Positions 138-10,167 of a stretch of DNA of 64,000 nt are shown here, in pieces (position 1 is the first letter of the stretch; every line of letters starts with the position of its first letter). The position numbers and the translations under genes are program-made. The DNA comes from Pedobacter sp. PAMC26386. GTDB taxonomy: Bacteria > Bacteroidota > Bacteroidia > Sphingobacteriales > Sphingobacteriaceae. The notes under the pieces are model-generated. The model was not told the origin of the DNA, searched no databases, and was given only the letters and a program-made list of their open reading frames with translations. The stretch spans positions 2,567,067 through 2,631,066 of the forward strand of contig CP060294.1 of assembly GCA_014302835.1 (NCBI GenBank). Reading direction: 5' to 3'.

Positions 138-716
138 ATGTCAGTATATAGCATTTATAGTGATAAAGAGCTTCTTCTATTTCTAGAGAGTGATAGGAAT
201 GACAAACATGCTTATGCGGAAATATATATGCGGTATATGCCTGCTTTGCAGGTTCATGCTCTTCAAAAAATCAAATCGAAAGATGATGTAAATGATATTT
301 TGCACGAATTGTTCATAAAACTATGGGACAATCGCAAATTCTTAGAGGTAACTACTTCCCTCTCGGCTTATTTATACACTGCCGTAAAAAACAGGATCTT
401 AAATTATATTATCCGGGGCGATTTTGTAAAGGATTACATCAGTTCCATACAGGATTATATACAGCGTGGCGTACCAATTACCGAGCAACAGGTGATGTTA
501 AATGAGCTTCAATCCATTATCAATAAGGAAGTAAAAGCAATGCCCAAGCAAATGCGCCAGGTATTTGAATTGAGCAGGTTTGAGGAACTCAGCCACAAAG
601 AAATTGCTTTAAGACTACACATCACCGAGGGAACGGTTAAAGTCCATATCAATAATGCTCTAAAAATATTGAGGCCAAAAATCAAGTCTTTAATTATTGT
701 CATCCCCTTTTTCTAG
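138..716 (+). CDS. ECF RNA polymerase sigma factor, FecI-like
   Basis: A 192-residue sigma-70 family protein of the extracytoplasmic-function type. Region 2 spans about residues 24-94, where the DDVNDILHELFIKLW stretch is the typical core-binding and -10 recognition segment. Region 4 spans about 121-181 with a helix-turn-helix (LSHKEIALRLHITEGTVKVHI). It has only regions 2 and 4, the usual ECF length. It is followed by a FecR-like anti-sigma gene and a SusC gene carrying an STN domain, the arrangement in which substrate binding at the outer membrane is signalled through FecR to release the sigma factor. The likely role is to drive transcription of this SusC/SusD locus. The family call is firm; the regulon is inferred from position. 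Confidence 0.93.
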   Translation: MSVYSIYSDKELLLFLESDRNDKHAYAEIYMRYMPALQVHALQKIKSKDDVNDILHELFIKLWDNRKFLEVTTSLSAYLYTAVKNRILNYIIRGDFVKDYISSIQDYIQRGVPITEQQVMLNELQSIINKEVKAMPKQMRQVFELSRFEELSHKEIALRLHITEGTVKVHINNALKILRPKIKSLIIVIPFF

Positions 717-835
717 GGCAAAACATTTTTTTCATTTTTCTTTATACCCTAAACCATTTTCAACTGTCATATAATTAGAAAGCGGAGAATTAGAGTCTTG
801 TAAAATTGTTACAATACTCCTCTCAACTAATTAAC

Positions 836-2017
836 ATGGAAAATCAAGTTCAGGAACTAATAGTAAAATTTAGAAGCGACACTTTATCAGAAACGGAGAA
901 ACATCTTCTTGAAGATTGGTATGACCAATTGGGAGACTTCACCCAAATGGATTATACTTCGGAAAAACTGAAAGAAGACCGTGAAAAAATATGGGGAAAA
1001 TTACCTGGAAAAATCATTCCTAAAAAAATATGGCCGTATTTTCCTGAAGTTGCCATTATCATTTTCGTTTTAAGTGCTTATTTATATCGTGTCGGACATT
1101 CTGATAGGTCAGCTAAAAACGAGAGCCTTATCTCTCAGATCGCACCTGCAAGCAACAAAGCCATTTTAACTTTAGGTGACGGAACCAAGATCAGTTTAAC
1201 AAATGCAAAAAGTGGAACAGTTGCTGAACAGCTTGGTATAAGTATCTCCAAAACTGCAGACGGCCAATTGGTTTATACCGTTGCAGAGCCCAAACTGCGT
1301 GGGAACGACGTAAGTAGTCGTCATCCTAAACTTGTTTCAATATCTCAATTCAACACCATAGAAACGCCCAATGGAGGGCATTATCAAATAAATTTACCAG
1401 ATGGAACGAAAGTATGGCTCAACGCTGCCTCAAGCTTAATGTACCCGATATCCCTTAATTCCCTTAAAGAACGCAGGGTAAAGTTGAGCGGTGAAGCTTA
1501 CTTTCAAGTAAAGAAAAACAAAACAAAACCTTTCCGGGTGGAGACCGGAAAGCAGGAAGTAGAAGTTCTAGGTACGCATTTCAATATCAACAGTTACCAG
1601 GAGGAATCCGAAATTAAAACTACCCTATTAGAGGGATCTGTAAAAGTGCATTATGCAATGACTAACGGGGCCCAATCAACACAAAATCTTAGTGGGGAAA
1701 TCATTTTAAAACCCGGCCAGCAATCCAATTTAAAACAGAATGGTCAGTTGAAAATAGTTCAGACAGATACTGTTGGAGTTGTGGCCTGGAGAAACGGAAA
1801 ATTTCAGTTTGACGGCGAAGATTTAAAAACAGTCATGCGGATCATTTCAAGGTGGTATGATGTCCATGTTGTTTACGAAACTGAAGTCCCTAAAAATCTA
1901 ATTCTCCAGGGTTGGGTTTCAAGAAAAAGTAATTTAGGGTCTATACTTAAAATGATAGAAAATATAAGTAGTGTTCACTTTAAAGTAGAAGGAAGGAGAG
2001 TAACAGTTATGAATTAA
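836..2017 (+). CDS. FecR family anti-sigma factor
   Basis: Membrane-anchored regulator of the upstream ECF sigma factor. I take the ATG at 836 rather than the in-frame TTG at 806, because the family begins with a short cytoplasmic helical domain and ATG gives MENQVQELIVKF. One transmembrane segment lies near residues 65-80 (WPYFPEVAIIIFVLSAYL). The periplasmic FecR domain covers roughly 175-275 (IETPNGGHYQINLPDGTKVWLN, then a GEAYFQV motif). The last about 75 residues match the DUF4974 C-terminal domain common in Bacteroidota FecR proteins. It lies 119 bases after the sigma gene on the same strand. Family role: it holds the sigma factor until signalled by the N-terminal domain of the partner outer-membrane transporter. 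Confidence 0.92.
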   Translation: MENQVQELIVKFRSDTLSETEKHLLEDWYDQLGDFTQMDYTSEKLKEDREKIWGKLPGKIIPKKIWPYFPEVAIIIFVLSAYLYRVGHSDRSAKNESLISQIAPASNKAILTLGDGTKISLTNAKSGTVAEQLGISISKTADGQLVYTVAEPKLRGNDVSSRHPKLVSISQFNTIETPNGGHYQINLPDGTKVWLNAASSLMYPISLNSLKERRVKLSGEAYFQVKKNKTKPFRVETGKQEVEVLGTHFNINSYQEESEIKTTLLEGSVKVHYAMTNGAQSTQNLSGEIILKPGQQSNLKQNGQLKIVQTDTVGVVAWRNGKFQFDGEDLKTVMRIISRWYDVHVVYETEVPKNLILQGWVSRKSNLGSILKMIENISSVHFKVEGRRVTVMN

Positions 2018-2044
2018 ACAGGGCTATGCTGTTGTAACAAAAGA

Positions 2045-2075
2045 GTGCCAGAAGTGCGATCAACACCCCTGGCAG
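2045..2075 (+). promoter_or_regulatory. Possible leader hairpin upstream of SusC
   Basis: In the 157-base gap between fecR and susC, TGCCAG (2046-2051) can pair with CTGGCA (2069-2074). An inner GTG/CAC pair extends the stem around an internal loop. No T-tract follows, so it is not a terminator. It may be a structured leader or attenuation site for the SusC/SusD genes. This rests only on base pairing. Confidence 0.35.
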
Positions 2076-2174
2076 TGTTCGGCGTTACAGCGACAAATAA
2101 ATTTATCAGCTAACCATTACTTAGTGCATATAACCTTGTAAGTAAAGGCACTAGTAATTAAACCTAACTAACAA

Positions 2175-5100
2175 ATGTATAGAAATTTTACTACAAAAAA
2201 TGGTATAGGAAATCGCTATATCCATAAAATCCTGTTCATTATGCGCTTAACCACCGTACTTTTAATGACAGCCTTTATGCATGTCAGTGCAGCCTCATTC
2301 GCACAGCGCGTCACGCTTAAGGAAAACAATGCCACTTTGGTGAGTGTATTGCAAAAAATACAGCTGCAAAGCGGCTATGATCTGCTGTTTAATAAAAACA
2401 TTCTTAATAAATCGAAGTCTGTTAGTGTTTCTTTAAATCATGTAAGCGTCAAAGAAGCACTGATTGCTACACTTACAAACTTGCCTTTAACCTTTGAGAT
2501 CTCAGGGCAAACGATTACCATAAAAGAGAAAACGCTTTCTATTATGGATCGTGCTGTCAATTCATTTAAGGATATAAGTATAACCGGAAAAATACTCGAT
2601 GAAAACCGGCAACCTATTAAAGGAGCTACGGTTACAGAAAAAGGAACAAATAACCGTACAAAAACTAATGAGAATGGCGATTTTACCTTATTAAAAATAG
2701 GAACAAATGCTGTACTTCTAGTTACTTATGTTGGTTCTACCCCTTTAGAATATAAAATAACTGATGAAACTAAGAGTATTCTAATTGTTCTTACACCACT
2801 TACCACTAAACTAAGCGAAGTCAGTATAGTAAGTACGGGTTATCAGGAAATTCCAAAAGAACGGGCTACAGGTTCGTTTGAAAAAGTAGATAATGCCCTA
2901 TTTAACCGAAGCGTAACCACAAATGTGCTGGATAGGTTAGATGGGATAACAACCAGTATATTATTTAACAAACGAAGTGTTCAGGGAAAACAAAAGTATC
3001 CAAGCATAAGGGGAATTAGTTCATTATCTGGATCGGAAGGCCAAAATCCTTTAGTTGTTATAGATAACTTTCCTTATGATGGTGATGTAAATAACATCAA
3101 CCCCAATGATGTAGAAAGTATTAGTATTTTAAAGGATGCTGCAGCTGCTTCCATTTGGGGAACAAAGGCTGGCAATGGAGTAATTGTAATCACCACAAAA
3201 AAGGGAAAATTTGATCAGCCACTTAAGATCTCTTTAAACAGTAATGTTACGATTACTCAAAAACCAAATCTTTTCTATTTACCCGTTATTAAAAGCACCG
3301 ACTTCATTGATATTGAACAATATTTATTTAAAAATGGTGCCTTTGTTGGTTATGTAAATCAAATGTTTGGCAACCTAAGCCCCGTCGTCCAAATTTTGGA
3401 TCAGCAGGACAAAGGACAAATCTCCCCGACAGATGCGACCAACCAGATCAATGCTTTAAGGGGGGGTGATACCCGAACAGATTATATGAAATACTTATAT
3501 AGGAAGTCTGTTAACCAACAATATGCCCTTAATATTAGTGGAGGTAGTAAGCAAATAAGCTACTATTTATCTGGAGGTTTTGATAAGAACATGAATAGTC
3601 TGGTTACATCAGATAACAACCGTTTGTCATTTCGTTCAAATGTCACCATAAGACCAGTTAAAAATCTTGAAATCGAAACAGGAATTCAATATACTGAAAC
3701 CAAAGACAAAGAAATTGGAAGTCAATTTCCCATTGCTTATGGAAATTTGAATTATCTACGCCCATATATTAAACTTAAGGATGACAATGGTAATCCGCTT
3801 GAAGTTGATGCCAGCCCAATATATTTAATCAAAAGCTATAGAGATACCGTTGGTGGGGGACGTTTGTTGGATTGGCATTTCAGACCATTAGCCGAACTTA
3901 ATAAAAGCTCTAATACAACTACTTTAAGAGATGTATTATTAAATGTGGGTGCCAAATATAAAATCAACGGAATATTTAACGCATCTATTAAATATCAGTA
4001 TGAAAGAAATACTGGCCAAAATGTAGATTGGGAAGGCCTAGGGAGCTATTATACCCGAGACCAAATTAACTATTATTCAGATTGGACACCAGCAGTTGTA
4101 AAAAGAGCCATACCGATTGGAGATATTATCCAGACAACTAATTTAAACCAGGCATCCTATGATGCCAGAGCCCAACTGGATGCCAATAAAACATGGAATA
4201 CTATACATCAGCTAACTGCAATAGCAGGTGTTGAGATAAGACAGAACCATAATTGGTCTCAAGGTAATAGGGTTTATGGTTATAATGGAAATACTTTATC
4301 AACACAAGCAGTTGATTATGCTACACCGCAAGTGGTGTTAGCTGGAAATGATTCACCAGCTCTAATTCCAAGAAGCGATGATTTTATTGACCTCACCAAT
4401 AGATATACTTCAATTTTTGCCAATGCAGCTTACACTTTTAAAAGACGATATACCCTATCTGCTAGTATAAGAAAAGACGAAACTAATTTTTTTGGCGTTG
4501 AAAGCAACCAAAAAGGAACCCCATTGTGGTCTACTGGATTAGCTTGGGACATTTCTAAAGAATCATTTTATGATTCTGGATTATTGCCTTTTCTAAAGCT
4601 AAGAGCAACTTACGGGTATAATGGAAACGCTATACCAGGTCAATCACCCAGACCTGTAATTTCTTATATTAAATTTCCCAATCCTATTACCCAGCTAACT
4701 TACGCAAGTGTTCTAAATCCGCCAAATCCTGGCTTAAGATGGGAGAATGTAAGGGTTATTAATTTGGGCGTTGATTTTGCATTAAGAAACAATCGATTGT
4801 CAGGTAACATAGAATACTATGATAAACTTTCTACTGATGTGATTAGTACAATACCGACAGATCAAGGCTCAGGGGTTCTGACAGTAAAAAAAAATGCAGC
4901 AAACTTGCATGGCCGTGGGATTGATGTTAACCTAACCAGTTTTAATATACAAAGTCCTTCTTTTAGCTGGGTATCAAATTTACTATTTAGCCACAACCGA
5001 GTTATTGTTTCAAAATATTTGCTTCCCCCTAACTTACCGGATTTGGTAAACTACAACGGAACTGCAAATATTAATCCTGTACAAGGTCAGGATTTAAATG

Positions 5101-5723
5101 GACTGTATACGTTTAAGTGGGCCGGGCTAGATCCATTGACAGGAGACCCACAAGGTTATGTAAATGGAAAAATAAGTAAAGATTATAATGCATTAACCAA
5201 TCCTACATCAATTAATGACCTTGATTACCAAGGTTCAGCTACGCCAACCTATTACGGCGCCTTCAGAAATACATTTACTTATAAATCCTTTTCAATTTCA
5301 GCAAACATCCTTTATAAATTTGGCTATAAATTTAAAAAACCCGTACTTTCTTATACAGATCTTTATACAAATGGCTTTGCACAAACCGGATCTGATGAGT
5401 ATACAAATAGATGGCAAAAGCCAGGTGATGAAACTATCACTAATGTACCTTCTGTATCATATCCTGCTAATTCTTTAAGGGATCTCTTTTACAAAAATTC
5501 ATCGGCTACAATTGAAAACGCTGCAAATATAAGATTGCAGGATATAAATCTTAGTTATACAATTAACAGACCGAATATTTATTTTAAAAATCTCAGGCTA
5601 TATGCAAATATGAATAATCTAGGGATTATTTGGAAGGCTACAAAAACTAGTTATGACCCAGATTATGTTCTAAATATACCTAATCCCCGGAGCCTAACTT
5701 TTGGATTAAGTGCAAATTTTTAA
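2175..5723 (+). CDS. SusC/RagA-type TonB-dependent transporter with STN domain
   Basis: An outer-membrane TonB-dependent transporter of 1182 residues. After a long N-terminal signal region (to about residue 44, ending near SFAQ) there is a secretin/TonB short N-terminal (STN) domain at about 45-118, which in this family contacts a FecR protein. A carboxypeptidase-regulatory-like beta domain follows at about 133-205 (ITGKILDENRQPIKGATV). The plug contains the signature KDAAAASIWGTKAGNGVIVITTKKG, broken here as KDAAAASIWGTKAG and NGVIVITTKKG. The remainder is a beta-barrel ending in the aromatic F typical of outer-membrane proteins. The SusD gene begins immediately after the stop codon, so they form a pair. 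The STN domain fits regulation by the upstream sigma/FecR genes. The substrate cannot be told from sequence, as no glycoside hydrolase is attached. Confidence 0.95.
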   Translation: MYRNFTTKNGIGNRYIHKILFIMRLTTVLLMTAFMHVSAASFAQRVTLKENNATLVSVLQKIQLQSGYDLLFNKNILNKSKSVSVSLNHVSVKEALIATLTNLPLTFEISGQTITIKEKTLSIMDRAVNSFKDISITGKILDENRQPIKGATVTEKGTNNRTKTNENGDFTLLKIGTNAVLLVTYVGSTPLEYKITDETKSILIVLTPLTTKLSEVSIVSTGYQEIPKERATGSFEKVDNALFNRSVTTNVLDRLDGITTSILFNKRSVQGKQKYPSIRGISSLSGSEGQNPLVVIDNFPYDGDVNNINPNDVESISILKDAAAASIWGTKAGNGVIVITTKKGKFDQPLKISLNSNVTITQKPNLFYLPVIKSTDFIDIEQYLFKNGAFVGYVNQMFGNLSPVVQILDQQDKGQISPTDATNQINALRGGDTRTDYMKYLYRKSVNQQYALNISGGSKQISYYLSGGFDKNMNSLVTSDNNRLSFRSNVTIRPVKNLEIETGIQYTETKDKEIGSQFPIAYGNLNYLRPYIKLKDDNGNPLEVDASPIYLIKSYRDTVGGGRLLDWHFRPLAELNKSSNTTTLRDVLLNVGAKYKINGIFNASIKYQYERNTGQNVDWEGLGSYYTRDQINYYSDWTPAVVKRAIPIGDIIQTTNLNQASYDARAQLDANKTWNTIHQLTAIAGVEIRQNHNWSQGNRVYGYNGNTLSTQAVDYATPQVVLAGNDSPALIPRSDDFIDLTNRYTSIFANAAYTFKRRYTLSASIRKDETNFFGVESNQKGTPLWSTGLAWDISKESFYDSGLLPFLKLRATYGYNGNAIPGQSPRPVISYIKFPNPITQLTYASVLNPPNPGLRWENVRVINLGVDFALRNNRLSGNIEYYDKLSTDVISTIPTDQGSGVLTVKKNAANLHGRGIDVNLTSFNIQSPSFSWVSNLLFSHNRVIVSKYLLPPNLPDLVNYNGTANINPVQGQDLNGLYTFKWAGLDPLTGDPQGYVNGKISKDYNALTNPTSINDLDYQGSATPTYYGAFRNTFTYKSFSISANILYKFGYKFKKPVLSYTDLYTNGFAQTGSDEYTNRWQKPGDETITNVPSVSYPANSLRDLFYKNSSATIENAANIRLQDINLSYTINRPNIYFKNLRLYANMNNLGIIWKATKTSYDPDYVLNIPNPRSLTFGLSANF

Positions 5724-5744
5724 ATGAATTTAAAATTAGAACAG

Positions 5745-7136
5745 ATGAAATTATTTAAAATATTAATACCAATTCTGGTGCTGAGCACATTGCTCTGCTC
5801 TTGTAAGAAATACCTTGATCTGAAACCAGATCGGTCACTATATGTTCCGTCAAATTTAACAGATTGTCAGGCATTACTGGATGATTATACTAAGATGAAT
5901 AGTGGCTATCCTGCAGATGGAGAAGTCGCTTCTGACCACTATTATTTAACGGATGCCAGTTGGACAAGTTTATCAAATAAGGACAATAGAGACAATTATA
6001 TATGGACAATACAAGCTAATCATAGTGTTACTTCATGGGCCCAACCTTATGCGACCATATTTAATTCAAACCTGGTGTTACAGGTTCTGGACGGTATTAC
6101 ACCTAAATCTGATATTGAGTATAATACGATCAAAGGATCTGCTTTATTTTTTAGGGGATTTGCTTTGCATAGTATAGCTTCATTGTTTTGTAAACCTTAT
6201 GATGCAATTGCCTCAGCAAATGACCCTGGAGTTCCTACACGTTTAAGCCCCGATATTAACATTGTTTATGGTAGAGGAACAGTACAGCAAACATATAATC
6301 AAATTATACAGGATCTTAAAATGTCAGTTGATTTACTTCCGGCAACGAGTACGATTAAATCACGTCCAAATAAGGCCGCTGCTTATGCCGAACTTGCGCG
6401 GGTTTACTTGTCGATGAGGGATTATACAAATGCGGGTACCTACGCAGATTTATGCTTAAAGATAAATAGCCTCTTACTTAACTATTCCTCACTAAACGCA
6501 ACAGCAACTATTCCATTTACAAGATTTAATGATGAGGTAATCTTTTCATCTACTTTGACCAGCCCCAATTTCCCTCCATTGTCCCAAACTAATGCAAAAA
6601 TCGTAAGCACGCTATATTCTTCTTATCAATCCAATGACATCAGGAAACAGATCTTTTTTAAGACGAATACTGGGCCTAACTTGGGCACTTTTGCATTTAA
6701 AGGCAGTTATGATGGCTCGTCAACAATTTTATTTGGGGGGTTAGCAACAGATGAAATGTATCTGATTAGGTCAGAATGTTTTGCCAGAGCTGGTAAAACT
6801 ACTGAAGCGCTAAATGATTTGAATAATCTGTTAAAAACACGATGGAAAATTACCCTGGTAAATGGAGTTAATACGACCCCATACCCCAACTACACAGCCA
6901 GTAGCGCTGATGAAGCATTGGGGATAATCTTAAAAGAACGTGAAAAAGAATTAATTTTTAGAGGAATCAGATGGACCGATTTACGGCGTCTAAATAAGGA
7001 AAGTCGATTTGCCATAACATTAGCACGTACAATAAACGGAATTATCTATTCTTTACCACCTGATGATTCGCGGTATACCTTGCTAATCCCACAAAACGTA
7101 ATTAATAATACTGGTGTACCACAAAATGACAGATAA
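5745..7136 (+). CDS. SusD/RagB family outer-membrane lipoprotein
   Basis: Substrate-binding lipoprotein partner of the SusC gene before it. An ATG at 5724 abuts the SusC stop, but the in-frame ATG at 5745 gives a clean lipoprotein signal peptide (MKLFKILIPILVLSTLLCSC, lipobox LLCSC), so 5745 is preferred. The N-terminal CKKYLDLKPDRS motif, the TPR-like middle (AYAELARVYLSMRDYTNAG) and the C-terminal EREKELIFRGIRWTDLRRL motif are characteristic of RagB/SusD. At about 463 residues it is slightly short for the family. It probably caps the SusC barrel at the cell surface. Ligand unknown. Confidence 0.93.
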   Translation: MKLFKILIPILVLSTLLCSCKKYLDLKPDRSLYVPSNLTDCQALLDDYTKMNSGYPADGEVASDHYYLTDASWTSLSNKDNRDNYIWTIQANHSVTSWAQPYATIFNSNLVLQVLDGITPKSDIEYNTIKGSALFFRGFALHSIASLFCKPYDAIASANDPGVPTRLSPDINIVYGRGTVQQTYNQIIQDLKMSVDLLPATSTIKSRPNKAAAYAELARVYLSMRDYTNAGTYADLCLKINSLLLNYSSLNATATIPFTRFNDEVIFSSTLTSPNFPPLSQTNAKIVSTLYSSYQSNDIRKQIFFKTNTGPNLGTFAFKGSYDGSSTILFGGLATDEMYLIRSECFARAGKTTEALNDLNNLLKTRWKITLVNGVNTTPYPNYTASSADEALGIILKEREKELIFRGIRWTDLRRLNKESRFAITLARTINGIIYSLPPDDSRYTLLIPQNVINNTGVPQNDR

Positions 7137-7190
7137 ATTTCAATTCATTAAAAATCAACCCCAAGCAGTATTTCCAAATAAAAAATAATT

Positions 7191-8492
7191 ATGATAAAAT
7201 TTATTAAATGTTTATTCCTTCTGGTACCATTTGCTTTTATTGTAAATGCCCAACAAAAAACGGAATTTAGCAAACGACCGCAACCAGATCCGACAATCCG
7301 TAATCTTAATGTCGGCGATCAGGTTCCTAATGTTATTATCTCAAAAATCATTAGAAATGATAAATCCAATGCTAAGCTATCTGACTTTAAAGATCAATTA
7401 TTGATAATAGATTTTTGGGATACTTTCTGTGGAAGCTGCATAGACGCATTGCCCAGATTAGATACTCTGCAACAGCAATTTGGTAGCCGAATCAAAATAT
7501 TGCCTGTTAGTTATCAATCTGAAGCAGTAATGTCTGCCTTCTTTAAAAACAACAATTTTGTGAATAAAAGGAATGTTAAATTGCCTTGCGTAGTGGAAGA
7601 CAAGTTATTGGGATCATACTTTCCGTATAAACTTATTTCTCATGAGGTCTGGATTTATAAGGGAGTGGTTAAAGCTATTACGGGGACAGATTACATTACT
7701 GCAAAAAACATTCAAACTATCCTTGATGGAAAAACAGTGAAGTGGCCAGTAAAAAACGATATGGTTAATTTTGACCCCAAAAAGCCAATCTTTGCTCAAA
7801 CAGAGGCTGATCAGTATAATACTACAGGTCATTTTCTGAAATATTCAGGAATAACCGGCCATAGGGAAGGAATAGATTATAAAAAGGCAATTGTTTACGA
7901 CACATTGGCAACGGGTTATCGATCTGCATTTTACAATAAGTCAATTGTCCAGGCATTCACAATGATGACCTTTTTATTAAACCCAAAAACATTTATCCTA
8001 CACCCGGACAGGCTTATTTTAGAGGTGAAAGATAAGTCACGGTATGTTTATGAAAAGGAAAAAAAATTTCCCAGTGATTGGCTGAGTGAGCATGAAATTT
8101 GTTATGAAATGGTTTCAGCAAAACCAATGGATAAAAAGGAGAGATTGGAATACATTTATTCAGATTTACAACATCTATTAGGAGTAAATGCTCGCTGGGA
8201 AAAAAGGGATGTTAATTGTTTGGTTATAATCAAAAATAAGGAAGTAAATATTGATTCTTTGAACGCAACCAGAAAAACAGGAAAAAAGGTTATCGTAAGT
8301 GGTATTCCCGTGTTTTATCTGGATCAAAGCGAACAATACCCCCCAGGAATTGATGAAACTGGAATAAAGGGACAAATAGTAATTCAAGATTTTTCAAATC
8401 TCGATGGTTTAAAAAAACAATTGCAACTTTATGGTTGTGATATTATTGAAGCAAAAAGAAATATAGATGTGATGGTGATTACAGAAAAATAG
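7191..8492 (+). CDS. Secreted TlpA-like thioredoxin-fold protein with DUF3738-like C-terminus
   Basis: A 433-residue exported protein. A signal peptide covers about residues 1-20. A TlpA/AhpC-type thioredoxin domain follows at about 40-180 with the redox motif FWDTFCGSC (cysteines 80 and 83). The second half (about 200-433) is unlike thioredoxin. Its end, with DETGIKGQIVIQDF followed by a QLQLYGCDIIEAKRNIDVMVI segment (given here only in part), resembles the DUF3738/TIGR03435 pattern of a D-x-TGL-x-G core and a closing strand. The gene lies 54 bases after SusD and is the last of the co-directional set. It ends at a hairpin shared with the convergent MauE-like cluster. Role inferred: periplasmic thiol-disulfide exchange. 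The function of the C-terminal half is unknown. Confidence 0.82.
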   Translation: MIKFIKCLFLLVPFAFIVNAQQKTEFSKRPQPDPTIRNLNVGDQVPNVIISKIIRNDKSNAKLSDFKDQLLIIDFWDTFCGSCIDALPRLDTLQQQFGSRIKILPVSYQSEAVMSAFFKNNNFVNKRNVKLPCVVEDKLLGSYFPYKLISHEVWIYKGVVKAITGTDYITAKNIQTILDGKTVKWPVKNDMVNFDPKKPIFAQTEADQYNTTGHFLKYSGITGHREGIDYKKAIVYDTLATGYRSAFYNKSIVQAFTMMTFLLNPKTFILHPDRLILEVKDKSRYVYEKEKKFPSDWLSEHEICYEMVSAKPMDKKERLEYIYSDLQHLLGVNARWEKRDVNCLVIIKNKEVNIDSLNATRKTGKKVIVSGIPVFYLDQSEQYPPGIDETGIKGQIVIQDFSNLDGLKKQLQLYGCDIIEAKRNIDVMVITEK

Positions 8493-8516: not shown

Positions 8517-8544
8517 ACACATTGGGGGCATACCCCCAATGTGT
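8517..8544. terminator. Bidirectional hairpin terminator
   Basis: A perfect 12-base inverted repeat, ACACATTGGGGG (8517-8528) and CCCCCAATGTGT (8533-8544), with a 4-base loop. It is flanked by an A-rich tract on the left, which becomes a T-tract on the minus strand, and by weaker T-richness on the right. It sits between the convergent TlpA-like gene and the last small cysteine gene. Confidence 0.82.
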
Positions 8545-8563: not shown

Positions 8564-8803
8564 TTAATTTGCACTCCTTAACAATACACGGGTTTGATCC
8601 GAATTTGTATTCAACGCCGTAACCATTTCTGATTTCAACTCGTCATCCAAACTTGGTTCATTAGGAATATCACTTTCATCTGCAAAAATTGCACAAATTT
8701 TACCTGTTCCTGGACAAGAAGGAGGAACTGTACCTACAGAGGTGTAACTTGAAGGACTATTTGGATCTGCTCCAAGAGTCCTGACATACCATGTAAACGC
8801 CAT
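8564..8803 (-). CDS. Small cysteine protein, third paralogue (79 aa)
   Basis: One of three tandem paralogues of unknown function. Shared features are an aromatic N-terminus, GAD (GADPNSP here), SYTSVG, a PPSCPGTGKICAIFA core with two cysteines in a C-PGTGKI-C arrangement, and a C-terminal ALNTNSDQTRVLLR segment. This copy lacks the extra N-terminal cysteine of the other two (GADPC, GADSC) and has a longer acidic stretch in the middle. No signal peptide or membrane segment is visible. It is the last gene of the minus-strand set led by the MauE/DoxX-like gene, and a duplicated leader lies just upstream. Conservation across three copies makes it a real gene. It may be a target or partner of the redox membrane protein, but that is inference. 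Confidence 0.75.
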   Translation of the reverse strand: MAFTWYVRTLGADPNSPSSYTSVGTVPPSCPGTGKICAIFADESDIPNEPSLDDELKSEMVTALNTNSDQTRVLLRSAN

Positions 8804-8821
8804 AGTTTTAAATTTAAAATG

Positions 8822-8892
8822 TTGCCTACTCTATTCAGGGTTTTGGGCATCCCCCTTGCCTACTCTTAGGATTTTCGGCATACTCCTTCGTG
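8822..8892 (-). repeat. Two adjacent leader repeats upstream of the third small gene
   Basis: Two degenerate copies, at 8822-8855 and 8856-8892, of a motif that reads on the plus strand TTGCCTACTC followed a few bases later by AGGATTTTCGGCA or AGGGTTTTGGGCA. The same motif precedes each of the other two small genes. It lies 19-90 bases upstream of the start codon, so it is in the leader or intergenic transcript. Confidence 0.75.
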
Positions 8893-8922
8893 TTTCGAAA
8901 TTTGAAATTTTTAATATTTTTA

Positions 8923-9147
8923 TTAATTATTGAAGCTTAACAAAACCCTCGTTTGATTATTATTTGTATCTAAGGCAGTTCTCATTTGAGCTTTTAAATC
9001 CTCATCAATAATGGGTTTACCGAACTCGTCGACCTCTGCATAGATCGCACAGATTTTCCCTTTACCAGGACAATTTGGAGGAGCAGATCCAACATTAATA
9101 TAACTTTCTGGAAAGCATGAATCAGCACCATGTACCTTAAAAACCAT
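8923..9147 (-). CDS. Small cysteine protein, second paralogue (74 aa)
   Basis: Middle member of the three-gene family. It has GADSCFPESY, then VGSAPPNCPGKGKICAIYA, then EVDEFGKPIID and ALDTNNNQTRVLL. It carries three cysteines, one in the N-terminal third and two in the CPGKGKIC core. The EVDEFG-PIID segment is almost identical to that of the first paralogue, so these two are the closest pair. No signal peptide is recognisable. It lacks the extra residues (YAWFLR-type) at its very start. I do not recognise the family by name, so function is unassigned. Confidence 0.75.
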   Translation of the reverse strand: MVFKVHGADSCFPESYINVGSAPPNCPGKGKICAIYAEVDEFGKPIIDEDLKAQMRTALDTNNNQTRVLLSFNN

Positions 9148-9202
9148 ACATAAGCCATAATTTAAGTGTTTTTATAAACTTAAAAAGCGTAAACTTTAAT
9201 TC

Positions 9203-9240
9203 TTGCCTACTCTGTTTCAGGATTTTCAGCAATTCCTTTA
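9203..9240 (-). repeat. Leader repeat upstream of the second small gene
   Basis: A third copy of the TTGCCTACTCTG...AGGATTTTC motif, 56 bases upstream of the second small gene. The A/T-rich sequence between the motif and the start codon also matches that of the first small gene over about 80 bases, so the gene was duplicated with its leader. A weaker fourth-like stretch lies near 9266-9300. Confidence 0.75.
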
Positions 9241-9350
9241 TTCTAAAAAAGGATTGAATTCTAGTTCCTCTCTACTTGAAACATATTTCGCTTACTCCAA
9301 AGTCACAAATATTTGAGAATAGGGTATTTAAAGTTTTAGCTGCTTCATCT

Positions 9351-9587
9351 TTAATTATTGGATCGAAGTAAGACTCTTGGCTGGTCAGATCTAGTGTTTA
9401 GGGCCGTGATCATCTCACTTTTTAAACCATAATCAATTATAGGTCTGCCGAACTCATCGACCTCTGCGTAAATAGCACATATTTTCCCCGTACCAGGGCA
9501 ACCTGGAGGCACGCCACCAACATTTGTATAACTATTTGGAAGACATGGATCAGCTCCATATATCCTTAAAAACCATGCATAACCCAT
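9351..9587 (-). CDS. Small cysteine protein, first paralogue (78 aa)
   Basis: First of the three tandem small genes after the MauE/DoxX-like gene. It reads MGYAWFLRIYGADPCLPNSY, then a VPPGCPGTGKICAIYA core, EVDEFGRPIID and ALNTRSDQPRVLLR. It has three cysteines, one in GADPC and two spaced by PGTGKI. The hydrophobic N-terminus is too short to be a convincing signal peptide. It is separated from the membrane gene by 163 bases containing the leader repeat. The strict conservation of C-PG-x-GKI-C, against free variation elsewhere, suggests a functional disulfide or metal site. The precise role is unknown. Confidence 0.76.
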   Translation of the reverse strand: MGYAWFLRIYGADPCLPNSYTNVGGVPPGCPGTGKICAIYAEVDEFGRPIIDYGLKSEMITALNTRSDQPRVLLRSNN

Positions 9588-9628
9588 AATTTTAGTGCTT
9601 TTATATTAAAAAGCTTAAATTTTAGTTT

Positions 9629-9666
9629 CTGCCTACTCTGTTAAAGGATTTTCGGCGTTTTCCTGG
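9629..9666 (-). repeat. Leader repeat upstream of the first small gene
   Basis: A copy of the repeated leader motif (CTGCCTACTCTGTTAAAGGA on the plus strand, continuing with TTTTCGGCG). It lies 42 bases before the start of the first small gene and marks the boundary of the duplicated unit. Confidence 0.75.
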
Positions 9667-9750
9667 TTTAACCTAACTGCTATATGCCCTGAAACATCCT
9701 TGTTGCGATGACTAATATTAAAAGGATACAACAACAGACACTAGTTCGTT

Positions 9751-10167
9751 TTATTTCAATCTATATTCTAAAAGCAGAACTCCAATTAGTGCAAGGGCAG
9801 AAAGGATAAGGTTCAATTTGAAATGTTTTCTCCAACCTATACGGGTAAATAACCCTCCACATGGACACGGATATTTATTGTATACATGAAACATAATTCC
9901 TCCGACATATACTGTAAAAGCTAGCATCATTATCAAAGTAGCATACATGCCAATTAAACGGGTTTTCTCAAAAATCAACAGACCAATTATACTAAGTTCA
10001 GTTATTGGAAGGAGCCAAGTAAGCAATTGAGCCATCCATTTAGGGATCGCCTGGCTTTCCATAACCTCTTTGAAATACCTGATATTTCGGAATTTGGGTA
10101 TTGACGCGTATGCCCATAATAAAATGAATAGCGCAATGATAATGTATGTTAAACCGGAGAGAATCAT
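9751..10167 (-). CDS. MauE/DoxX-like membrane redox protein
   Basis: A 138-residue integral membrane protein with about four hydrophobic helices (residues 3-20, 43-66, 71-95 and 117-135). A CPCGG motif sits in the loop before the last helix. This size, helix pattern and cysteine motif fit the MauE/DoxX redox-associated family, whose founding member helps form disulfides in methylamine dehydrogenase. No methylamine dehydrogenase genes are present here. It heads a minus-strand set with three small cysteine proteins, and the convergent neighbour is a secreted thioredoxin-like protein. It may supply oxidising or reducing equivalents to exported thiol proteins; this is inferred from context. Confidence 0.8.
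   Translation of the reverse strand: MILSGLTYIIIALFILLWAYASIPKFRNIRYFKEVMESQAIPKWMAQLLTWLLPITELSIIGLLIFEKTRLIGMYATLIMMLAFTVYVGGIMFHVYNKYPCPCGGLFTRIGWRKHFKLNLILSALALIGVLLLEYRLK

Follow-up and report, generated by a model that had tools for sequence, protein, structure and literature searches.

Which partner do three small cysteine proteins belong to when their genes lie in tandem between a MauE-like membrane protein gene and a transport operon? The genes are found in a 64,000-nt stretch of Pedobacter sp. PAMC26386 (CP060294.1, positions 2,567,067 to 2,631,066; the whole stretch is referred to here as the window), whose genome is a single contig of 4.8 Mb. The original prediction took MauE and the small proteins for a redox module in which the former sets the redox state of the latter. 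The four open reading frames (ORFs) were confirmed on the minus strand as a MauE gene with a CPCGG motif, followed by three look-alikes of 74-79 amino acids (aa). Features that the prediction had overlooked were the frame change in copy 2, the repeated 5′ flank, and an operon for a sigma factor, FecR, SusC, SusD and TlpA lying tail to tail with the array. We found that the small protein together with SusC-SusD (SusCD) and TlpA is the steadier and larger unit. The window proteins belong to a two-cysteine domain; they lack a leader and have multiplied by tandem duplication, and exported relatives of theirs occupy the same slot of the module. The locus is thus a tandem form, without leaders, of a module otherwise known, within the searches made, only as DUF6520 (PF20130) beside MauE.

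Scanning of 55 stretches plus the window at an expectation value (E) of up to 0.01 yielded 138 family members in 54 loci; two of the 56 sources (L050 and L051), which had been taken for their MauE genes, held no members and were dropped. In 34 of the 54 loci the nearest SusC, SusD or TlpA gene was convergent with the small-protein gene at a distance of 32-179 bp (median 62.5), the close neighbor being TlpA in 29 and SusD in 5. Seven further loci had a convergent neighbor at a greater distance, and three had one on the same strand. These loci come from the top of a profile search in which the window proteins were part of the profile, and are no random sample; with several from some genomes, they also lack independence. 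In all 34 short convergent gaps the fold includes at least seven pairs in a row, a figure obtained without a shuffle control.

The same layout was seen within the Pedobacter genome itself, where all three SusCD operons with this type of TlpA (defined by a search at E up to 1e-6) have a tail-to-tail gene for a small two-cysteine protein. The window operon faces the three leaderless copies, and the other two slots hold signal-peptide proteins. Opposite the second operon is a DUF6520 protein that scores over the family cut-off; upstream of it lie MauE and a CRP-like regulator whose match is weak. Opposite the third is a protein of 109 aa with a leader, at a distance of 56 bp from SusD. Two adjacent genes near the third operon (L170:11637-13954) resemble, by eye, an IS21-type transposase pair. 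In a search centered on TlpA (30 loci), 20 loci were not evaluable, SusC or SusD being next in line, and 8 of the 10 evaluable loci had a small convergent gene (four leaderless, four with a leader). Leader-bearing family members in L098, L107, L108 and L122 likewise occupy the convergent slot, 50-87 bp from SusD. Where all four genes are present (28 loci), the small protein's pairwise distances correlated with those of SusC (r = 0.79), TlpA (r = 0.76) and SusD (r = 0.75); r was 0.90 for SusC-SusD and 0.87 for TlpA-SusC. Such correlated divergence fits inheritance as a unit and does not show binding.

The features of the window locus are as follows (E values are for Pfam matches unless stated otherwise):

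138 to 716, plus strand: extracytoplasmic function (ECF)-type sigma factor (Sigma70_r4_2, 7.1e-15; Sigma70_r2, 2.4e-8)
806 to 2017, plus strand: FecR-type anti-sigma factor (FecR, 6e-22; FecR_C, 5.8e-19)
2175 to 5723, plus strand: SusC-type TonB-dependent receptor with an N-terminal STN-like domain (Plug, 2e-12)
5724 to 7136, plus strand: SusD-type lid protein (SusD-like_3, 2.9e-37; SusD_RagB, 1.8e-10)
7191 to 8492, plus strand: TlpA-like thioredoxin-fold protein with a CGSC motif and a C-terminal extension (AhpC-TSA, 9.7e-9; Thioredoxin, 1.6e-6)
8517 to 8544, both strands: terminator-like hairpin between the convergent genes (12 pairs, 7 of them G-C)
8564 to 8803, minus strand: small cysteine protein copy 3, 79 aa, ORF without a signal peptide (family profile, E 5.7e-22)
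8923 to 9147, minus strand: small cysteine protein copy 2, ORF of 74 aa from an internal start, with a 1-nt deletion relative to copy 1 (family profile, E 1.3e-16)
9180 to 9230, minus strand: 5′ flank of copy 2, repeated along with the gene (partners at 9606-9656 and, shorter, at 8808-8844)
9351 to 9587, minus strand: small cysteine protein copy 1, 78 aa, ORF without a signal peptide (family profile, E 7.7e-21)
9751 to 10167, minus strand: MauE-like four-helix membrane protein with CPCGG, 138 aa (PF07291, 5.5e-26, 91.8 bits against a cut-off of 27)

The five plus-strand genes (138-8492) thus run tail to tail into copy 3 across the 12-pair hairpin. The SusC and SusD genes are adjacent ORFs and, with the Plug and SusD-like_3 matches listed, make up a SusCD-type transport operon. 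Of the three parts that mark a TonB-dependent transducer, the sigma factor and FecR were matched upstream of SusC, and the STN-like domain of SusC itself scored below its cut-off (E 5.8e-6; 26.5 bits against 28.4). The final 213 residues of TlpA matched no Pfam family at E up to 10. The hairpin is a weak call by itself, as the terminator scan returned 4 such sites where 2.3 were expected. Past MauE, ten proteins were scanned between 10.5 and 20.2 kb; the genes there encode MaoC, AraC, SnoaL-like, FMN reductase, hydrolase, P450, aldehyde dehydrogenase and GMC oxidoreductase proteins, and look unrelated to the module.

Within the array, copies 2 and 3 each share 65% identity with copy 1; the CPGxGKICAI core does not vary, and the QxRVLL tail is kept. 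Residues C30 and C37 are invariant in the three copies, and each protein has two or three cysteines. The ratio of non-synonymous to synonymous substitution rates (dN/dS) was 0.19 between copies 1 and 2 and 0.16 between copies 2 and 3, while copies 1 and 3 were saturated at synonymous sites. Because dN/dS is 0.16-0.19 where it can be measured, the small ORFs are more than chance ORFs and are genes under purifying selection. Copy 2 is one base short of copy 1 just past its start. Its copy-1-like start (9158) is out of frame, so that the 74-aa reading has to begin with the ATG at 9147; the copy may be in decay, or the new start may be in use. The repeated unit takes in the 5′ flank, with a 51-nt repeat (84% identity) ahead of copies 1 and 2, and a shorter one ahead of copy 3 that belongs to a 37-nt, three-copy family (73-76%). 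The motif (up to two mismatches) was confined to the array, and the idea that the stretches between the copies are a regulatory or mobile repeat spread through the genome was rejected. When copy 1 was searched against the 4.8-Mb genome at E up to 10, the three window copies were the sole matches. A wider profile added one remote member (C1:1082542-1082766, in L099), which lacks the searched cysteine motif and lies beside glycosyltransferase genes. Structures predicted from few sequences were of low confidence, both for the small protein (mean predicted local distance difference test score, pLDDT, 56.6) and for TlpA, the extension of which was unmodelled (mean pLDDT 45.1).

Profile searches showed that the small-protein family is nearly confined to the taxonomic family of the Pedobacter genome. 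A profile of 33 members (E up to 0.001) matched 69 of 301 genomes of that family, and a profile of 45 members, applied across the phylum at a stricter E of 0.0001, matched 3 of 296 genomes, namely the Pedobacter genome, one of the same family and one of another family in the class. Copy 1 alone, at E up to 1, matched 19 of 59 genomes (its own, 35 of the same genus and 23 of the same class), mostly weakly and several in runs. A scan of named genomes with one pattern gave a single relative, in Sphingobacterium yanglingense (L082). Collections of phages and plasmids contained no match to copy 1, and a phage or plasmid origin is not supported.

Most members start near a W-F/Y motif at the beginning of the mature domain. 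The searched motif, C-x6-C or C-x7-C, was present in 118 of the 138 members; one member had a spacing of nine, and the motif was absent from 19, a few of which still have two cysteines. A paralog starting MPWY(Q/K).I(N/D)N, usually without the cysteine pair (the one in L048 has it), recurs in glycosyltransferase clusters, among other places at L038:5829-6119 and, once in the Pedobacter genome, at L099:8480-8770. Leaders were called with a crude hydrophobicity rule that flags 4 of the 138 members and misses L108, whose leader was read by eye. Members scored as leaderless, window proteins included, have no hydrophobic in-frame extension upstream, and the window proteins start at the mature domain.

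Comparison of the leaderless and leader-bearing profiles gave 99.5% across 72 columns, which is practically the full length of the leaderless protein, so the leaderless proteins and the close exported forms are the same domain. Homology to DUF6520 runs through these leader-bearing intermediates, which matched the DUF6520-like set at 96.9%, partly via the shared leader, and which score 15.5-20.4 bits against the DUF6520 model (cut-off 25.4). The leaderless and DUF6520-like sets compared directly gave 4.5%, and filing the window proteins under DUF6520 is therefore not justified. The DUF6520 proteins are alike in being small cysteine proteins with a conserved cysteine pair near MauE, and, in the Pedobacter genome, in occupying the same tail-to-tail slot by SusC-SusD with MauE directly upstream. 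They differ in that the members found here have a leader, whereas the window proteins are leaderless and do not match the model.

Pfam, NCBIfam and PHROGs contained no family covering the small proteins. The window proteins had no DUF6520 match in Pfam at E up to 1 (the only match was DUF5302 for copy 2, E 0.29), and nothing in NCBIfam. The 33 members matched seven Pfam families with one member each, the best being DUF6520 at E 0.0007 (20.4 bits, below the cut-off). Three NCBIfam families were matched by one each of the 45 members at E 0.007 or worse, which we took as chance, and PHROGs gave nothing for the same 45. On these results membership in a named family was rejected. Profile searches of Protein Data Bank (PDB) sequences returned E 0.54 or worse.

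The window MauE resembles the MauE of methylamine utilization in its PF07291 match and its CPCGG motif, and may act on disulfides of a partner protein. It differs from that system in that no methylamine dehydrogenase gene occurred among the window neighbors scanned. A genome search for the methylamine dehydrogenase light chain gave no match; the control was equally silent, so this is no proof of absence. According to PMC7794033, MauE has been speculated to help disulfide formation in methylamine dehydrogenase.

When viewed from MauE, the pairing with small cysteine proteins is recurrent. In 19 of 23 MauE loci examined in the family, a small leader-bearing ORF with at least two cysteines lay directly downstream; a convergent SusD or TlpA gene within the 1.5-kb flank was found in 16, and both features in 14. 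The count used 23 of 30 loci, each the best match of its genome and not every match; six long fused forms (L151-L153, L155-L157) were left out, as was L031 from the Pedobacter genome, which was handled as L050. In L147 a small gene is visible that the hydrophobicity rule missed in this count. The third MauE of the Pedobacter genome (L051) had no small partner in view. DUF6520 gave a similar picture, with 7 matches in 61 genomes of the family, 6 of them directly beside a MauE match by coordinates. In a phylum sample of 22 DUF6520 loci (the Pedobacter genome included), 19 had a MauE homolog within the 1.5-kb flanks and 4 had SusD. In three stretches from outside the family (L202, L203 and L214), the MauE near DUF6520 belongs to a protein of 418-478 aa, the long remainder of which had no Pfam match over cut-off. 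The module is greatly expanded in one genome of the family (G077), where MauE was matched 16 times (E up to 1e-15) and TlpA 17 times (E up to 1e-20).

From the side of the small proteins, MauE was present in 9 of the 54 loci, as judged from the stretch fetched. The pairing at the heart of the original prediction is thus borne out as recurrent, but homologs of the window proteins lie mostly away from MauE, which for this branch is the very outcome that the original prediction had named as refuting it, and the commoner partner of this branch is SusC-SusD-TlpA. MauE as the defining partner of this branch was accordingly rejected; the pairing exists here, but as an option. Where family 2 glycosyltransferases were absent, leaderless loci had MauE only at tandem arrays, in 6 of 14 multi-copy loci vs. 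none of 24 single-copy loci (Fisher p 0.001), a contrast chosen after seeing the data and ignoring relatedness. MauE was also found in 2 of 11 glycosyltransferase loci and in 1 of 5 leader-bearing loci.

Other neighbors recurred as well. Family members occur together with family 2 glycosyltransferase genes in 11 of the 54 loci (L038, L041, L043, L046, L047, L048, L083, L089, L090, L091 and L099), 8 of which also have a GT10-like gene and 4 an S8 subtilase; L038 holds 12 family members. These loci suggest that their small proteins are glycosylated. An S8 protease was found in 6 loci in all, including the 4 with glycosyltransferases. CRP-like regulators lie just upstream of MauE or small-protein genes at L050:8020-8625, L082:6819-7406, L095:8907-9518 and L097:8537-9136; cNMP-binding matches were below cut-off in three and absent in L095, and the name was given partly by eye. 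AraC-like regulators also recur nearby.

What, then, might the small protein do? We tentatively propose, at somewhat less than an even chance, that it is a ligand or cargo of its own SusCD transducer, its disulfide being handled by TlpA and MauE. The proposal is made because the slot is recurrent, exported relatives occupy it, the partners are of thioredoxin type and the receptor is of transducer type. In this module a dedicated SusC-SusD(-TlpA) operon meets the small-protein gene tail to tail, and MauE often lies directly upstream of the latter. Its product would be made by the cell, reach the surface or the medium, and there be bound or taken back by SusCD, possibly with something carried along, as a hemophore does. 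Binding would feed back on transcription through the STN-like SusC, FecR and the sigma factor, and in the periplasm the C-x6-C disulfide would be formed or exchanged by TlpA, helped by MauE at loci that have it. Receptor binding, handling of the disulfide and signaling are all predictions. One known system that resembles the locus is peptide uptake by SusCD/RagAB, which shares the SusC and SusD families and the TonB-type plug, and differs in that here the operon goes together with a small gene of the cell's own. As precedents, RagAB is implicated in protein uptake (PMC11817032), and peptide clusters of the MNIO kind in Bacteroidota are said to occur often with SusCD (PMC12636315).

Several observations weigh against this proposal, the main one being the leaderless state of 133 of the 138 members (hydrophobicity rule and eye), with no export route visible. 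This is the chief weakness of the ligand proposal and of the redox model alike. Export genes were not seen among the recurrent neighbor clusters that could be identified, several clusters having stayed nameless. In 10 of the 54 loci the stretch fetched contained no SusC, SusD or TlpA, and 2 of the 10 evaluable TlpA loci had no small gene. In only 13 of 28 loci did the small protein and SusD point to the same nearest relative, and correlated distances are expected of any linked genes. Furthermore, SusCD pairs abound in these bacteria, and for many the substrate is a sugar.

Three other explanations were weighed. The small proteins could be precursors of ribosomal natural products, such as a bacteriocin or secreted peptide, matured by disulfide formation and glycosylated in relatives, with SusCD serving as the producer's receptor or being unrelated. 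The tandem, diversified copies, the glycosyltransferase and GT10-like genes and the S8 proteases described above would suit such a role. So would two reports: candidate ribosomally synthesized and post-translationally modified peptide (RiPP) clusters of Streptomyces found with decRiPPter combine a mauE homolog with a small cysteine-rich protein (PMC7794033), and SusCD is the frequent companion reported for the MNIO clusters of Bacteroidota (PMC12636315). The decRiPPter precursors have at least eight cysteines (PMC7794033), as opposed to two or three in the window proteins. Among the proteins scanned between 138 and 20170, no enzyme of a known, dedicated peptide-modifying class was recognized, though a P450 and further oxidoreductases are encoded there and unfamiliar enzymes may be among them. 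By eye, the alignments have no sharp boundary between leader and core, with conserved columns over most of the length, and an immunity or export gene was not recognized. On balance we consider a precursor role rather unlikely.

The redox model of the original prediction, in which the small proteins would be thiol carriers or folding substrates of TlpA/MauE, for SusCD assembly or stress defense, draws on the regular adjacency of MauE to leader-bearing small cysteine proteins and to DUF6520, on the 29 loci with a tail-to-tail TlpA, and on the cysteine spacing kept by most members. Leaderless forms predominate, however; the searched motif is missing from the 19 members noted, and 45 of the 54 loci as fetched have no MauE. 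MauE, like other MauE/DoxX/VKOR-type proteins, is expected to face the periplasm. Because the window proteins have no signal peptide, a MauE so oriented could act on them only after export by an unrecognized route, and we regard the redox model as unlikely. Least probable, and in our estimate very unlikely, is a new cytoplasmic role for the leaderless copies, for example in control of the convergent operon. The predominance of members with neither a leader nor a hydrophobic upstream extension would agree with it, as would the CRP-like (weakly matching) and AraC-like regulators nearby, but most members retain a disulfide-type cysteine pair, and eight loci with leaderless members still have MauE, two of which also carry glycosyltransferases.

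Among the papers listed from the open-licence literature, surveyed by title and abstract, there was no description of a module combining a small protein, MauE, SusCD and TlpA, and no paper was found there under the name DUF6520. SusCD pairs are mostly regarded as importers of food. If many of them carry a self-made small protein, part of the large and unassigned SusCD repertoire may serve signaling, scavenging or self-recognition, and the pairing offers a direct handle, with a candidate ligand encoded 32-179 bases from its receptor operon in the 34 loci above. A stronger form of the ligand proposal, in which diversified leaderless arrays are recognized by a dedicated SusCD transducer as a self-encoded protein-ligand system for private recognition or scavenging, is doubtful. 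The leaderless arrays pose a clear question of protein export, and, if such a self-encoded ligand system is real, they would imply an unrecognized export route in Sphingobacteriaceae.

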